DNA of 64,000 bases from Prosthecobacter vanneervenii (GTDB lineage Bacteria; Verrucomicrobiota; Verrucomicrobiia; Verrucomicrobiales; Verrucomicrobiaceae). The notes under the pieces are model-generated. The model did no database searches, was not told the origin of the DNA, and saw only the letters and a program-made list of their open reading frames with translations. A program made the position numbers and the translations under genes. This document shows, one piece after another, positions 16,101 through 21,182 of the stretch. Position 1 is the stretch's first letter; each line of letters opens with the position of its first letter. The DNA is taken from assembly GCF_014203095.1 (NCBI RefSeq), contig NZ_JACHIG010000006.1, positions 124,001-188,000 of the forward strand, read 5' to 3'.

Positions 16101-16478
16101 ATGTTCAAGACCGGCCAGCAAGTTGTCTGCATCAATGACCAGTTCGATCCCTGGGTGTATGACCTGTACAAGTCACTGCCCAAGAAGGATGAGATCTACA
16201 CGGTGCGGGCGATCCGTGCGGGGAGGTCGAATCCGCAATTTGTGGTGAATGATGATGCGGAGATCAAGCTGGCGGGGGCGGAGTTTGACATTCTGCTGCT
16301 GCTGAAGGAGCTGAACAATCCGGATGATCCGCACTCGAGCGTGAAGCAGGAGCTGGGGTTTAGGTCGGAGAGGTTTGCGCCGCTGCTGGAGGAGACGGAG
16401 GAGGTGGAGGAAGAGGAGCTGGTGGGCGTGGGTGCTGGGAAGAAGGAATGGGAGCCGGAGCCGGCGTGGTCGAAGTGA
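16101..16478 (+). CDS. small conserved-type protein, function unknown
   Basis: A 125-residue soluble protein. The N-terminal 80 residues look like a compact beta domain (TGQQVVCINDQFDPW, DEIYTVRAIR, FDILLLLKEL, LGFRSERFAPL), resembling small SH3-like proteins found in phages and Proteobacteria. The C-terminal 40 residues are low-complexity and acidic (EETEEVEEEELVG). It directly follows the cupin gene. No function can be assigned. Confidence is in the gene being real, not in any role. Confidence 0.65.
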   Translation: MFKTGQQVVCINDQFDPWVYDLYKSLPKKDEIYTVRAIRAGRSNPQFVVNDDAEIKLAGAEFDILLLLKELNNPDDPHSSVKQELGFRSERFAPLLEETEEVEEEELVGVGAGKKEWEPEPAWSK

Positions 16479-16619
16479 GGGGGCTGCCCGTCCTTCGCAC
16501 TTCGTGCTACGGAGGGCTCGCTGCGCTCGCTGGCGCGTGCGCGAGGGATCAATTGCAGTTCCTGCGGGGTGGATGAAAACTTGGCATCGCGGGCGCTGTT
16601 TGATAGAAACCTTTATCTC

Positions 16620-17636
16620 ATGAGCGCTCCTCCCGATCTATCGCCGTCGTCTGCACCCCTCACTGAACGCCAGATCGTCGAGCTGCTCTCCACGGCGCGG
16701 CAGCGGATTTTTGCGGAGGTGGGGAAGGTGATCGTGGGGCAGCAGCATGTGATTGATGAGATGCTGATCGCGCTGCTGAGCGGGGGGCATTGTTTGATCA
16801 CTGGAGCGCCGGGGCTGGCGAAGACGCTGCTGATCAAGACGGTGGCGGATGTTTGTCATTTGAGCTTTCAGCGGATTCAGTTCACGCCGGATTTGATGCC
16901 TTCGGACATCACGGGGACGGAGATTTTGGAGGACAGTCCGGAGGGGCGGAAGCTGGTGTTTAGCCAGGGGCCGGTGTTTGCGAACATGATCCTGGCGGAT
17001 GAGATCAACCGCACGCCGCCGAAGACGCAGGCGGCGCTGCTGGAGGCGATGCAGGAGCATCAGGTGACGGTGAACGGGAAGACGATGCACCTGCCGGAGC
17101 CGTTCTTTGTGCTGGCAACGCAGAACCCGATCGAGCAGGAGGGGACGTATCCGCTGCCGGAGGCGCAGCTGGACCGCTTCATGCTGAACATCGTGATCGA
17201 CTACCTGAGTGAAGATGATGAGGTGGCGGTGGTGACGAAGACGACGGCGGGGAAGGGAGAGCCGGTGCAGCGGCTGTTCAGCGGTGAGGAGATGCTGGCG
17301 TTTCAGCAGACGGTGCGGAAGGTGCCGATCGCGGAAGATGTGGCGCGGTATGCGGTGCGGCTTTCGGCGGCGTCACGGCCAGGAAGAGAGGGCGTGCCGG
17401 ATTTTGTGAACCAGTGGGTGAGCTGGGGCGCAGGGACGCGCGCGAGCCAGAACCTAGTGCTGGGGGCGAAGACGCGGGTGCTGCTGCATAATCGGACGCA
17501 TGTGACGGTGGAGGATGTGCGGGCGATGGCGCTGCCGGTGCTGAGGCATCGTATTTTGGTGAATTATAAAGCGGAGGCGGAGGGGGTGACGGTGGAGAAG
17601 GTGATACAGAGGCTGCTGGAGCATGTGAAGGCCTAG
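16620..17636 (+). CDS. MoxR-family AAA+ ATPase
   Basis: A 338-residue MoxR-type AAA+ chaperone ATPase. Walker A GAPGLAKT is at residues 62-69 and Walker B ILADEINR at 124-131, followed by the pore/sensor region KTQAALLEAMQEHQVTV and sensor 1 LATQNP. Such ATPases work with adjacent DUF58 and VWA proteins, probably in metal insertion or maturation of complexes at the membrane, and that partnership is reproduced here. The start is uncertain: the ATG at 16620 gives MSAPPDLSPSS, while an in-frame ATG at 16572 has a better purine-rich upstream sequence. The normally close DUF58 gene is displaced by an inserted cassette. Confidence 0.93.
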   Translation: MSAPPDLSPSSAPLTERQIVELLSTARQRIFAEVGKVIVGQQHVIDEMLIALLSGGHCLITGAPGLAKTLLIKTVADVCHLSFQRIQFTPDLMPSDITGTEILEDSPEGRKLVFSQGPVFANMILADEINRTPPKTQAALLEAMQEHQVTVNGKTMHLPEPFFVLATQNPIEQEGTYPLPEAQLDRFMLNIVIDYLSEDDEVAVVTKTTAGKGEPVQRLFSGEEMLAFQQTVRKVPIAEDVARYAVRLSAASRPGREGVPDFVNQWVSWGAGTRASQNLVLGAKTRVLLHNRTHVTVEDVRAMALPVLRHRILVNYKAEAEGVTVEKVIQRLLEHVKA

Positions 17637-17642
17637 GGGGTA

Positions 17643-18128
17643 AAAATGACGAATGAGTAAATCCGAATGACTAAATAAATCTGAATGCCGAATGACGAAG
17701 ATGAGCGCTGGGAATGACAAAAATTTCGATTTGGAGGAGCGCACAGCGATGTTCGGCGAACGAGTCATAGACTTTGCGAAGGCGGTGCCTCGGAATGAGG
17801 TGACGAAACCTCTGATCTCTCAGATCGTTCGGTCGGGAACCAGTGTCGGTGCCAATTATGGAGAAGCGGATGATGCCATCTCGAACAAAGACTTCCGAAA
17901 CAAGATCGCCACCTGCAAAAAGGAGTCGCGGGAAACCAAGCATTGGTGCCGCATGATTGTTCGTGCAGAACCTGAGATGCGTGAAGCGGCCAAGCCGATC
18001 TGGCAGGAGGCCAAGGAACTGCATCTCATCTTCTCGGCTATTCTGCGGAAAGCGCCTCCTCCCAAGTGACGAGGCTTGCCAGCGTTTCGTCATTATTTCG
18101 TCATTCGGATTTACTCATTAGTCATTTT
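17643..18128. mobile_element. inverted-repeat cassette carrying a four-helix-bundle protein gene
   Basis: A 486-bp unit fills the space between the MoxR and DUF58 genes. Its ends are 29-bp inverted repeats differing at one position (17643-17671 and 18100-18128, outermost bases AAAATGAC). Further inverted matches lie inside: AAATA, ATGACGAA and CGCTGG. The left arm overlaps or closely abuts the start of the enclosed gene. Without the unit, MoxR and DUF58 would be about 15 bp apart, as is usual for this operon. No transposase is encoded. Repeated ATGACGAAT/AATCCGAATGAC words occur within the arms. Confidence 0.75.
17692..18069 (+). CDS. four-helix bundle protein (23S rRNA intervening-sequence type, TIGR02436-like)
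   Basis: A 125-residue helical protein of the family first found in intervening sequences of 23S rRNA in Leptospira and others, related in fold to the Avd accessory protein of diversity-generating retroelements. Diagnostic blocks are FAKAVPRNEVTKPLISQIVRS, SVGANYGEA, FRNKIATCKKESRETKHW and EAKELHLIFSAI. The biochemical role of the family is unsettled. The start may be the ATG at 17692 or 17701. The gene is embedded in an inverted-repeat cassette between moxR and DUF58 genes, and its codon use (AAA, TTC, GAT mix) is less GC-rich than its neighbours. Confidence 0.88.
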   Translation: MTKMSAGNDKNFDLEERTAMFGERVIDFAKAVPRNEVTKPLISQIVRSGTSVGANYGEADDAISNKDFRNKIATCKKESRETKHWCRMIVRAEPEMREAAKPIWQEAKELHLIFSAILRKAPPPK

Positions 18129-18136
18129 CCAACCCG

Positions 18137-19054
18137 ATGCCTGCTCAGACCACCACCTTCCTCGATCCTGCCGCGCTGATGCGGATCAAGTCGCTTGAGT
18201 TGAGGGCGAAGGTGGTGGTGGAGGGGCTTTGGAAGGGGATGCACCGGAGTCCTTATCATGGGTTCTCGGTGGAGTTTTCGGAGTATCGGGCTTACGTGCA
18301 GGGGGATGATCCGCGGTATATTGACTGGAAGGTGCTGGCGCGGAGTGACCGGACGTACATCAAAAAGTTTGAGGATGAGACGAACCTGCGGTGCCAGATG
18401 GTGATTGATCACAGCAAGTCGATGGGGTTTGGATCGGCGGGCTATACGAAGGCGGATTATGCGGCGACGCTGGCTGCGACGCTGGCGTCTTTTTTGATGA
18501 AGCAGGGGGATGCGGCGGGGCTGACGACGTTTGCGGACGGGATTGAGGAGCATCTGCCGGCGCGAAACAGGCCGGGGCATCTGCGGCGAATCATCACGGA
18601 GCTGGATAGGCCGGCGAAGGCGGCGGGGACGTCGCTGGCGGTGTCGGTGGGACAGCTGGCGGAACTGCTGAGGAAGCGGGGGATGATCTGCCTGATCACG
18701 GATCTGCTGGCACCGGTGGAGCATTTGGAGAAGCAGCTGGCGCTGCTGAGCGCGATGGGTCACGATTTGGTGCTGTTTCACCTGATGGACCGGGCAGAGA
18801 TTGATTTTACGTTTGAGAAGTCGGCGTATTTCCGGGATGCGGAGACGGGGGCGGAGAGGTTCATCGATCCGCTGCTGGTGAGGGAGAATTATTTGAAGCG
18901 GCTGGGGGCGCACCGAGATGCGATCCAGGCGGCGACGGAGCGGCACAATGTGGAGTATCACTTTTGCCCGACGGATGTGGCGCTGGAGGAGGTGCTGTTT
19001 GATTTTCTGAGTGCTAGGCAGAGGAAGAAGAAGGTGGGGAGGGGCGCGGTATGA
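18137..19054 (+). CDS. DUF58 domain protein
   Basis: A 305-residue cytoplasmic protein of the DUF58 family, the usual partner of MoxR ATPases. The conserved opening is KVVVEGLWKGMHRSPYHGFSVEF. The signature YVQGDDPRYIDWKVLARSD follows, then a VWA-like core with VIDHSKSMGFG (a MIDAS-like DxSxS variant, DHSKS). The DUF58/VWA fold may bind a divalent metal and hand clients to MoxR; this is inference from the family. Start: ATG at 18137, just after the inverted repeat of the inserted cassette. About 100 bp without a gene separates it from the next VWA gene. Confidence 0.93.
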   Translation: MPAQTTTFLDPAALMRIKSLELRAKVVVEGLWKGMHRSPYHGFSVEFSEYRAYVQGDDPRYIDWKVLARSDRTYIKKFEDETNLRCQMVIDHSKSMGFGSAGYTKADYAATLAATLASFLMKQGDAAGLTTFADGIEEHLPARNRPGHLRRIITELDRPAKAAGTSLAVSVGQLAELLRKRGMICLITDLLAPVEHLEKQLALLSAMGHDLVLFHLMDRAEIDFTFEKSAYFRDAETGAERFIDPLLVRENYLKRLGAHRDAIQAATERHNVEYHFCPTDVALEEVLFDFLSARQRKKKVGRGAV

Positions 19055-19151
19055 GTGATGCCTTCTTTGCTGGCTTTGTGCTGAACTGTGGGCTGCAGGC
19101 CACAGGGAGGAGGAGTATGAGTAGGAGGAAGAGGAGGATTCAGAGCATATT

Positions 19152-21182
19152 ATGAGCTGGTTGTTTCCCATATACCTTGCGGGTGCGGCGGCGATCATTG
19201 CGCCGATTTTGCTGCACCTGAGACGCAAGCCGCCGCAGGACAGGGTGGAGTTTAGCACGCTGATGTTTTTGGATGCGAGCACGCCGGTGCCGGTGAGCAA
19301 GAGGAGGCTGGAGAACTGGTTGTTGCTGGCACTGCGGTGCCTGGCGCTGATTCTGCTGGCGCTGATGTTTGCGCGGCCGTTTTTGCAGGGGGAGAGCTCT
19401 GCGGCGAAATCTGCGGACCGGGCGATGCTGATCCTGCTGGACCGCAGTGCGTCGATGCGGAGAGAGGATCTGTGGAAGCGTGGGGTGGCGGAGGCGGAGA
19501 GGCTTTTTAAGGAGGCGAAGATTACGGACCATGTGGCGCTGGCGGTGTTTGACCGGAAGCTGGTGCCGGTGTGGACTTTTGAGGAGGATCGCAACACGCC
19601 TGGGAACCGCAGTGCGGCGCTGCAAAGCAGGCTGGCTGAGATGTCGCCGGGCTGGAGTGCCACGCAGATGGATCGCGCGCTGATCGCGGCGGTGCCGTCG
19701 TTTGATGCGAGCACGGCAGGACTGAAGAAGCGGATTCATCTCATCTCGGATTTGCAGGAAGGATCGCGACTGGATGCGCTGCGGACGATTGCGTGGCCTG
19801 CGGAACTGAGTGTGGAAGTGCACCGGCTGGAGCCGAGCACGAATGATGATTTCTCGATCGCCCAGGCGGCGCGGGATGATGAGAGCAGTGCGGATGCGCT
19901 GGTGCGTGTGAGGGTGAGCAACACTCGGGATTCGGCACTGCGGGATTTTACGCTGGCGTGGCAGGGGGCTCCGGTGGCGGGCGGGATTTCATCGCAGATG
20001 CCGCCGGGGGCCTCGCGCATTATGGTGGCTCCGCCGAATGAGACGAAGGCGACGACGCTGGTGCTCACGGGTGACAGGCATGATTTTGACAACCGGCTTT
20101 TCATCGCACCGCCGCAGCCGCGAGCGGTGCGCATTCATTTTCTTGGCGAGGAGAGCACGCGGGATGAGGCGGCGGCTCCGCTGTACTATCTGGCGCGTGC
20201 GCTGCAGCCCACTGCGACGCTGGCTCCGGCGCTGACGGCGAGCCCGGCGCTGCCGAAGCAGAAGCCGGATCTGCTGGTGGTGTCTGGACTGACGCAGCCT
20301 GCTGCGATGCATGCGGGGCTGCGCGACTTTGTGACGGGGGGCGGGTTTCTGGTAGAGGTCGTCACCTCCGCCGCCGATGCAGCACTGCTACAAACTCTCA
20401 CGGGCATTCCTGGAATCACGGTCAAAGACGGTGGCGGGGAGGGCGACTACCGGATGCTGGCGGAGGTCAAGACGGAGCATCCGCTGCTCAGGCCGTTTGC
20501 GGATCCAAAGCTGCGGGACTTTACGAAGCTGCGCTTCTGGAAGCAGCGCGAGATTGAAGTCAAGGATGCAGGAGGCAAGCTGGAAACGCTGGCGAGTTTT
20601 GACAACGGGAAGCCTGCGATCCTCAGCGGAAAGATTGGCCGGGGAACGCTCATTGTGCTGGCCTCGGGATGGCATCCGGGGGACAGCCAGCTGGCGCTCA
20701 GCACGAAGTTTGTGCCACTGCTGTATGGGTGGCTGGCAGCGGCGGGATTCAGCCATGATCCGGCGGGTGCGCTGGTGGTGGGAGATGTGCTGCCGCTGGA
20801 CAGCGGGGCTGTGCATACGATCACGGAGCCGGATGGGAAGGTGCAGCGCCTCAAGGCGGGAGAGTCTTTTACAGCGGGGCAGGTGGGGCTGCATCAGGTG
20901 GAGGGCGGGACGCATACGCGCACGCTGGCGGTCAATCTACCACCGGACGAGGGGCGGGTGCTGCCGATGCCGCCGCAAAAGCTGGCGGAGTATGGAGTCA
21001 AGCTGGCGAGCGGTGACGAGAAGGCGGGGGCTGGAGAGAGTGCGGAGCAACGACTCACCGCGACGGATACCGAACAGAGGCAGCAGTCGTGGTGGTATAT
21101 TCTTCTGGTGCTGCTGGCCGTTCTTGTGCTGGAAACCTGGGTGGCGGGGCGCGCCCGACAGACTGTCCTACAAACCGCGTAA
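19152..21182 (+). CDS. BatA-like membrane protein with VWA domain
   Basis: A 676-residue membrane protein. The N-terminal BatA module consists of helix LFPIYLAGAAAIIAPILLHL (about residues 4-23), the RRKPPQDRVEFSTLMFL linker and a second helix LLLALRCLALILLALMFA (about 56-73). A VWA domain starts at MLILLDRSASMRRED with an intact DxSxS MIDAS motif. The middle region is beta-rich and probably periplasmic. A C-terminal helix (SWWYILLVLLAVLVLETWV) returns it to the membrane. Together with MoxR and DUF58 this matches Bat/aerotolerance-type operons. The large next gene begins 12 bp downstream. Confidence 0.88.
   Translation: MSWLFPIYLAGAAAIIAPILLHLRRKPPQDRVEFSTLMFLDASTPVPVSKRRLENWLLLALRCLALILLALMFARPFLQGESSAAKSADRAMLILLDRSASMRREDLWKRGVAEAERLFKEAKITDHVALAVFDRKLVPVWTFEEDRNTPGNRSAALQSRLAEMSPGWSATQMDRALIAAVPSFDASTAGLKKRIHLISDLQEGSRLDALRTIAWPAELSVEVHRLEPSTNDDFSIAQAARDDESSADALVRVRVSNTRDSALRDFTLAWQGAPVAGGISSQMPPGASRIMVAPPNETKATTLVLTGDRHDFDNRLFIAPPQPRAVRIHFLGEESTRDEAAAPLYYLARALQPTATLAPALTASPALPKQKPDLLVVSGLTQPAAMHAGLRDFVTGGGFLVEVVTSAADAALLQTLTGIPGITVKDGGGEGDYRMLAEVKTEHPLLRPFADPKLRDFTKLRFWKQREIEVKDAGGKLETLASFDNGKPAILSGKIGRGTLIVLASGWHPGDSQLALSTKFVPLLYGWLAAAGFSHDPAGALVVGDVLPLDSGAVHTITEPDGKVQRLKAGESFTAGQVGLHQVEGGTHTRTLAVNLPPDEGRVLPMPPQKLAEYGVKLASGDEKAGAGESAEQRLTATDTEQRQQSWWYILLVLLAVLVLETWVAGRARQTVLQTA

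Follow-up and report, generated by a model that had tools for sequence, protein, structure and literature searches.

The moxR-DUF58 locus and its inserted unit

The window analysed here is a 64-kb stretch of the Prosthecobacter vanneervenii genome, in which a 0.48-kb unit with inverted ends splits a moxR gene from a DUF58 gene and encodes, as its sole product, a TIGR02436 four-helix-bundle protein (hereafter IVP). The unit sits between protein-coding genes, outside any rRNA gene, and the locus is organized as follows (numbers are window positions; elsewhere, loci, genomes and contigs carry L, G and C numbers):

16569..17636, + strand: moxR-type AAA ATPase gene, upstream neighbour (PF07726, E 4.5e-64); stop codon at 17634-17636, 8 nt from the element edge
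17643..17678, + strand: left arm, 36 nt in its alignment with the right arm (2 mismatches, 1 of them within the first 29 nt)
17645..17701, + strand: left end, a heptad array of ~55 nt (consensus of 22 ends from 11 inverted pairs); outer edge AATGAC
17692..18069, + strand: IVP gene, TIGR02436 / PF05635, 125 aa (profile matches, AlphaFold2 fold, Foldseek)
18093..18128, - strand: right arm, repeating the left array in inverted orientation; element edge at 18126
18137..19054, + strand: DUF58 gene, downstream neighbour (PF01882, E 5e-47); ATG 10 nt from the element edge
19104..19140, + strand: single array of another family, identical over 37 nt to one end of the IVP element L004; stops 11 nt before the BatA ATG
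19152..21182, + strand: BatA-type gene of the same operon (PF07584)

The 29-nt inverted repeats with one mismatch that the original prediction placed between moxR and DUF58 are present (17643-17671 / 18100-18128), as are the further inverted matches that it noted inside the unit (I5 and I9). Over their full 36 nt the arms are 94% identical, and they form the only inverted pair in the window (blastn E<0.05, 60-3000 nt between arms). The expectation of clean terminal repeats held for the inverted ends and not for a fixed terminal sequence, the ends being arrays of degenerate heptads (AATGACG AATGAGT AAATCCG AATGACN AAATAAT). The left-end array overlaps the more upstream of two possible IVP start codons; judged by relatives, the start codon may be the ATG at 17704. 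ORF and profile searches of the unit recognized only the IVP and no transposase or recombinase, and an Rfam search of 16400-19400 gave no RNA family match.

The encoded protein

The ORF at 17692-18069 matches both TIGR02436 (E 3e-19, 69.2 bits vs. a cut-off of 24) and PF05635 (E 2e-12, 47.7 bits vs. a curated cut-off of 33.8), and as the only product recognized in the unit it bears out the prediction of a protein of the type encoded in 23S rRNA intervening sequences, and nothing else, as cargo. Its AlphaFold2 model (pLDDT 91.5) has four helices (14-31, 38-60, 65-92 and 94-120), and Foldseek with this model retrieved the solved IVP structures 2rld (E 7e-6, target-normalised TM 0.86) and 2gsc (E 1.5e-3), which have five chains each. 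XCC0516 has been described as forming a toroidal homopentamer (PMC4990558, in part). The full-length window IVP is mildly basic (charge +5), but across the family the domain has a median charge of -1. A strong basic charge was thus not found for the IVP family, which does not favour nucleic-acid binding, and no catalytic domain was shown by any search of the IVP. TIGR02436 was present in 51 of 56 related genomes and in 57 of 274 gammaproteobacterial genomes, i.e., it is a widespread uncharacterised family, known chiefly from rRNA insertions. Reports place IVP beside cas genes (PMC3936711, in part) and in rRNA insertions of CPR bacteria (PMC11270868, in part).

PF05635 has also been related to Avd (PMC10053308, in part), and the fold relatives from Foldseek include the diversity-generating retroelement particle 8ub7 and Avd (4dwl), at weak E-values of 0.17 and 0.16, respectively, with a probability of 0.99-1.00. 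The IVP could accordingly be an Avd-like retroelement part that works with a reverse transcriptase (RT) in trans, the unit moving by RNA copying. The genome does contain three RT matches; however, the nearest (C6:118376 and 119764) lie beyond the window, at a distance of ~21 kb from the element, and none adjoins any of the five IVP loci of the genome, so that we regard this reading as improbable. The two nearest RT matches are neighbours, upstream of the element (G000:C6:118376-120309). As to the proposed check for co-occurrence with an RT or a transposase, no transposase is encoded within the unit, and no RT match lies next to the IVP loci of this genome.

Gene-less copies of the element ends

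The 27-nt core of the window array occurs in 34 copies in the genome (at most 3 mismatches; 0 copies for a reversed-pattern control), which fall in 24 places. Among the 22 places that were read, eleven are inverted pairs oriented as in the window and eleven are single arrays. An IVP gene is found inside the window pair only, and the other ten pairs are gene-less, enclosing 41-261 nt. The 22 ends of these 11 pairs share ~55 nt, with unrelated interiors and a conservation that drops right outside AATGAC (17645 / 18126 in the window); the 27-nt search pattern behind these pairs itself begins at AATGAC, and the four columns outside it are unconserved. Target-site duplications, for which a test had been proposed, were not apparent when the 10 nt on either side of each of the 11 pairs were inspected by eye.

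One gene-less pair (C1:625311) lies at the end of a gene, presumably a dehydrogenase-like one, and has no counterpart at the orthologous position in L093; its array supplies a new stop codon. An open frame of at least 150 codons is stopped at the edge of 9 of the 11 pairs, vs. 270 of 2000 random points, a count to which we give no weight, as the array has stops in all frames and a mid-gene insertion would score too.

A second array family, that of L004 (the genome's other moxR-DUF58 IVP element, G000:C8:306004-309327), has 36 copies in the genome. Across 26 loci examined, six L004 arrays are partnered (in four places, one of them L004 itself) and the rest are single. The array at 19104-19140, between DUF58 and BatA in the window, is a single array of this type.

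Inverted arrays at other IVP genes

Arms were scored as the best local alignment between the pre-gene sequence and the reverse complement of the post-gene sequence, with a cut-off of at least 28. Prosthecobacter vanneervenii has five IVP genes, with clear inverted arms at four and weak ones at the fifth (L002, score 21, below the cut-off of 28), and each of the five has a different arm sequence, built of short degenerate units. Taken literally, the idea that the window's repeats would flank other TIGR02436 genes thus failed at the other four genes of the genome; what recurs instead is that most IVP genes tested have an inverted array of their own.

In this genome and its relatives, inverted arms were detected at 79 of 92 IVP loci, vs. 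1.3% of 2400 intervals drawn as controls from 400 kb of the Prosthecobacter vanneervenii genome, with 13 of the 92 reaching the cut-off in direct orientation. These loci come from 213 IVP matches, of which 94 loci were taken (all five from the genome itself, a single one from each of 29 other genomes, and 60 chosen by place in the upper and lower parts of the match list), i.e., a non-random set of 94 loci with 95 IVP genes, three of which had too little flank to be scored. A many-phyla set, consisting of the best 80 loci for one IVP subfamily in named genomes (77 with enough flank; L175 and L176 duplicate loci of the first set), gave inverted arms at 63 of 77 loci, vs. 2.9% of 1016 controls, and 20 of 77 in direct orientation. 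At the same cut-off, 27 of the 169 loci of these two sets were without arms. Among Gammaproteobacteria (29 loci, the best per genome from the 57 IVP-positive of 274 genomes, six of them cut by contig ends), arms were present at 21 of 23 loci, vs. 0 of 138 controls, with L347 and L351 scoring just 28 and 29; the arms of L351 may be due to chance. Four named genomes added 19 IVP copies, two of them cut, with arms at 12 of the 17 uncut copies (four loci repeat loci of the many-phyla set), and viral contigs had arms at 3 of 3 IVP loci, two of which are alike. The first set also includes 16 groups of IVP loci with both flanks alike, some of them paralogous operons, so that the compared loci are not independent events.

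The type of array goes with the type of protein. On the IVP tree, array types track protein clades, and the more alike two IVP proteins are, the more alike are their arms (Spearman 0.353, vs. a highest value of 0.097 in 300 permutations; 12675 pairs among 163 elements, limited to pairs whose flanking genes are dissimilar, the flanks of the gammaproteobacterial set being left uncompared). Since arms and gene are physically linked, this joint divergence demonstrates one travelling unit and falls short of proof of binding. At two sites with unrelated flanks, GATTTAY arms accompany IVP proteins that are 81-92% identical. Two candidate explanations of the arms were set aside: a fixed transposon terminal repeat, as the units differ between families, and a pre-existing hairpin serving as a general landing site, as arm type tracks protein type across unrelated sites (although at the window site arms are retained around other cargo).

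The elements are also polarized, the left arm being richer in G than C in 116 of 142 (reversed in the L004 family). Their position relative to neighbouring genes, taken as the longest open frames, was clear for 158 elements and unclear for three: 106 lie between two genes co-oriented with the IVP, 12 between two opposite-strand genes, 31 between divergent and 9 between convergent genes. Such a placement bears on the possibility that the unit acts at the RNA level, with arms kept to pair in the operon transcript and a stem cut by RNase III to free the IVP message, the unit thereby insulating or being tolerated in the mRNA. The 106 co-oriented cases agree with this possibility, as do the predicted fold of 17637-18136, in which the arms pair (z -5.2), and the Coxiella 23S rRNA intervening sequence, which has a 28-bp stem at its ends and is an RNase III substrate (PMC4990558, in part). 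However, 52 of the 158 elements lie elsewhere than between two co-oriented genes, gene-less pairs and single arrays exist, and a stem requires neither tandem units nor a preferred unit number. Moreover, arm mismatches comprise 141 G-U-tolerated vs. 166 non-tolerated transitions (p 0.17), the other 316 of 623 being transversions, and this absence of a G-U bias gives no sign that the arms are maintained for pairing in RNA. We therefore hold an RNA-level role to be unlikely, and the arms likewise lend no support to the RNA-based route of movement that had been considered for the unit.

Occupied and empty sites in related genomes

Comparison with genomes lacking an insertion, one of the checks proposed for the unit, was informative for the gene-less copy absent from L093 and for a sister element at a second site (site B), which we take to be a transporter permease-ATPase junction from reading the proteins. 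Among 17 congeners, site B holds the IVP element in 6, its right end in 1 more, a GxxExxY cassette in 1, and is empty in 9, Prosthecobacter vanneervenii included; the empty junctions measure 22-23 nt in 8, and one more has no permease match. L260 (G028:C32) has a GxxExxY cassette with GCGCAAAGG-type arrays at the junction that holds an IVP element in sister species.

At the window site, 25 of 30 DUF58 loci have a moxR match. Five of these 25 hold an IVP gene (with arms over the cut-off in four, L126 scoring 26), two a SUKH gene, and fifteen other inserts, with the remaining three empty or nearly so (~16, 20 and 74 nt); in L127 and L143 the junction spans only ~16-20 nt. This variety of inserts designates the moxR-DUF58 junction as an insertion hot spot. 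In two species the SUKH gene is enclosed by the same arms as the window's, which indicates that arms can persist without an IVP gene and outlive it.

Several further observations concern this region. The inserts at the moxR-DUF58 junction of congeners (L116-L143) are small, encoding SUKH and several uncharacterized proteins, and most are without arrays. IVP genes of different clades with different arms are found in four different moxR-DUF58-type operons (L004, L005, L045 and L061), as if this type of junction had been hit repeatedly. The DUF58-BatA junction contains gene-less inverted array pairs in L123 and L128 (CTCCTCTTCC-like, with loops of ~30 nt) and a long gene-less hairpin of different sequence in L133. 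Elsewhere, L103:3113-3829 has a perfect 47-nt inverted repeat around ~0.6 kb, a GTGCGG-type sequence resembling this repeat occurs in L096, L107 and L139, and L097:1117-2729 has GGAGAAACTTCTCC-type repeats clustered in both orientations.

An immobile origin would have slippage and hairpin copying expand the arrays in situ, the enclosed gene being a resident and normal part of the operon that plays a regulatory role. Short repeats can indeed slip, and many elements keep alike flanks across species (the 16 groups above). However, the empty junctions of ~16-23 nt would all have to be deletions, and this scenario has to accommodate dispersed, near-identical ends with a shared edge as well as the same element at unrelated sites, which makes it hardly credible.

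Arrays beside other small genes

The control families were sampled as one best locus per genome per family, with flanks of 330 nt (400 nt for GIY-YIG and GxxExxY). Arms were found at 2 of 27 uncut SUKH loci (PF09346), both at the moxR-DUF58 site, and at 0 of 20 small GIY-YIG loci (four cut loci and six UvrC-length genes, with scores of 18-21, were left out), so that arrays do not accompany every inserted small gene. GxxExxY genes (PF13366/TIGR04256) were chosen because the L260 insert was read as such a gene with its own arrays, and because genes of this family can have arrays of this kind beside them. For these, inverted arms were detected at 23 of 26 loci, and arms in direct orientation at 12 of 26, with four further loci cut. 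For L146 and L297, near contig ends, one gene edge was misplaced by ~100-170 nt in the scoring.

These counts also bear on a role for an unrelated transposase (e.g., RAYT/Y1) that would recognize the ends in trans, the IVP being a passenger or a regulator binding the same arrays. Array ends without IVP, i.e., the SUKH gene between the same arms and the ten gene-less pairs, argue for such an enzyme, as does the similar layout of GxxExxY genes. Conversely, array type tracks IVP type across unrelated sites, arrays are rare beside SUKH and small GIY-YIG genes, and the unit itself includes no transposase gene; on this evidence we consider this alternative to be unlikely.

Period and number of the array units

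The main unit period is 7 nt in 99 of 142 elements, 10 nt in 16 and 8 nt in 14. Five is the commonest number of units per IVP arm (123 of 322 arms, followed by four in 65, six in 40 and three in 24), units being counted as consecutive core matches, to which chance extension can add one. The mode of five holds for periods of 7 nt (81 of 198 arms), 8 nt (7 of 28), 9 nt (4 of 8) and 10 nt (16 of 32), periods 6, 11 and 12 being represented by six arms or fewer, which suggests that unit number rather than length is kept. Five is a mode and not a rule: four and six are common, five is not clearly ahead of four in Gammaproteobacteria (9 vs. 10 arms with spacing shifts, 11 vs. 10 without), and the two are nearly even in the many-phyla set without spacing shifts (40 vs. 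37 arms).

GxxExxY units are mostly 9 nt long, and their arms have three units in 27 of 36 cases (Fisher p ~1e-14 for five vs. three). A search for a solved relative of GxxExxY gave no convincing match (best E 0.68); a trimer is predicted for this protein, to match its three units.

A proposed mobile element family with counted ends

Taken together, the unit is or was mobile: it is bounded, gene-less copies with the same ends are dispersed in the genome, one of these has an empty counterpart, a sister element has occupied and empty sites, and the architecture is shared by most IVP genes tested in many phyla. The original prediction of a non-autonomous mobile unit is therefore supported as to mobility, and its label may be reversed: within its family, only the window unit carries a gene in this genome, which makes the gene-less pairs the better candidates for non-autonomous members.

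On balance, we think it probable that the unit belongs, as its gene-bearing member, to a small family of mobile elements, with ends made of inverted arrays of about five degenerate heptads and with IVP/S23 as sole product, in which an IVP ring would pair the ends. By analogy with the two solved relatives, the IVP would form a pentameric ring; each subunit could contact one unit of an end array, in DNA or in a single strand, and the ring as a whole could bring two element ends together, with a host or other trans-acting enzyme presumably cutting and joining. The element would settle mostly at gene boundaries, where its array may supply a new stop codon, and hence cause little damage. The gene-less pairs would depend on movement in trans, and 23S rRNA intervening sequences might be members that landed in rRNA. 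Recognition of the ends by a ring protein encoded in the element, which we consider probable, is the simplest account of three features: five units stand at genes for five-chain proteins, array and protein types match, and polarity is mostly constant. Ring proteins that read tandem RNA triplets, e.g., TRAP, are comparable in principle.

More tentatively, and as a possibility on which we would not insist, these elements may form a separate mobile-element class in which the units per end equal the subunits of the ring (five for IVP, three predicted for GxxExxY) and in which the protein recognizes the ends and also moves gene-less pairs in trans; rRNA intervening sequences, GGGAATC-type repeats and GxxExxY cassettes would then belong to it. 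If IVP genes are mobile elements with counted array ends, TIGR02436 gains a testable function, orphan heptameric repeats are possibly explained, and a simple protein-to-repeat code (subunit number equals unit number) follows. Because GxxExxY is a second family that shares the architecture but differs in the count, this rule is directly falsifiable. A literature search with partial journal coverage, to which bioRxiv preprints did not belong, brought up work on intervening sequences, Avd and heptameric repeats and found no description of IVP genes bounded by inverted arrays outside rRNA.

Relation to known systems

The closest known system is the 23S rRNA intervening sequence. In Coxiella and other bacteria, these intervening sequences encode the same protein family (S23p/IVP ORF) and have inverted terminal repeats of similar length (the 28-bp stem in Coxiella), and the Coxiella sequence has tandem heptameric GACAGAT repeats before its ORF, as the window unit has heptads at its ends; they are suspected to be mobile or selfish (all PMC4990558, in part). 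As in these sequences, the inverted ends of the window unit can form a stem around the IVP ORF. Unlike them, the window unit lies between protein-coding genes, has arrays at both ends and has gene-less copies, while other loci have different units.

Heptameric intergenic repeats are likewise described in Xanthomonas (GGGAATC, often as close inverted pairs) and Nostoc (GGGGAYT). They resemble IVP ends as intergenic arrays, and the gammaproteobacterial IVP loci L330 and L345 have GGGAATA arms; the portion of the source covered treats them as G-quadruplex repeats and makes no link to an IVP gene (PMC4692102, in part). Avd of diversity-generating retroelements has a related four-helix fold (the weak-E-value matches 4dwl and 8ub7), but its systems differ from the window locus, where no RT match is adjoining.

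As for short dispersed repeats, the window family resembles MITEs and REP elements in its dispersed short units, inverted ends and unrelated interiors, and differs from them in that its ends are degenerate tandem arrays, no target duplication was seen in the pair flanks, and the coding element encodes an IVP rather than a transposase. Finally, GxxExxY cassettes (TIGR04256 / PF13366) share with IVP elements the layout of a single small gene within inverted degenerate arrays, but encode a different protein family (Pfam name PDDEXK_3) between arms of mostly 9-nt units, three per arm.
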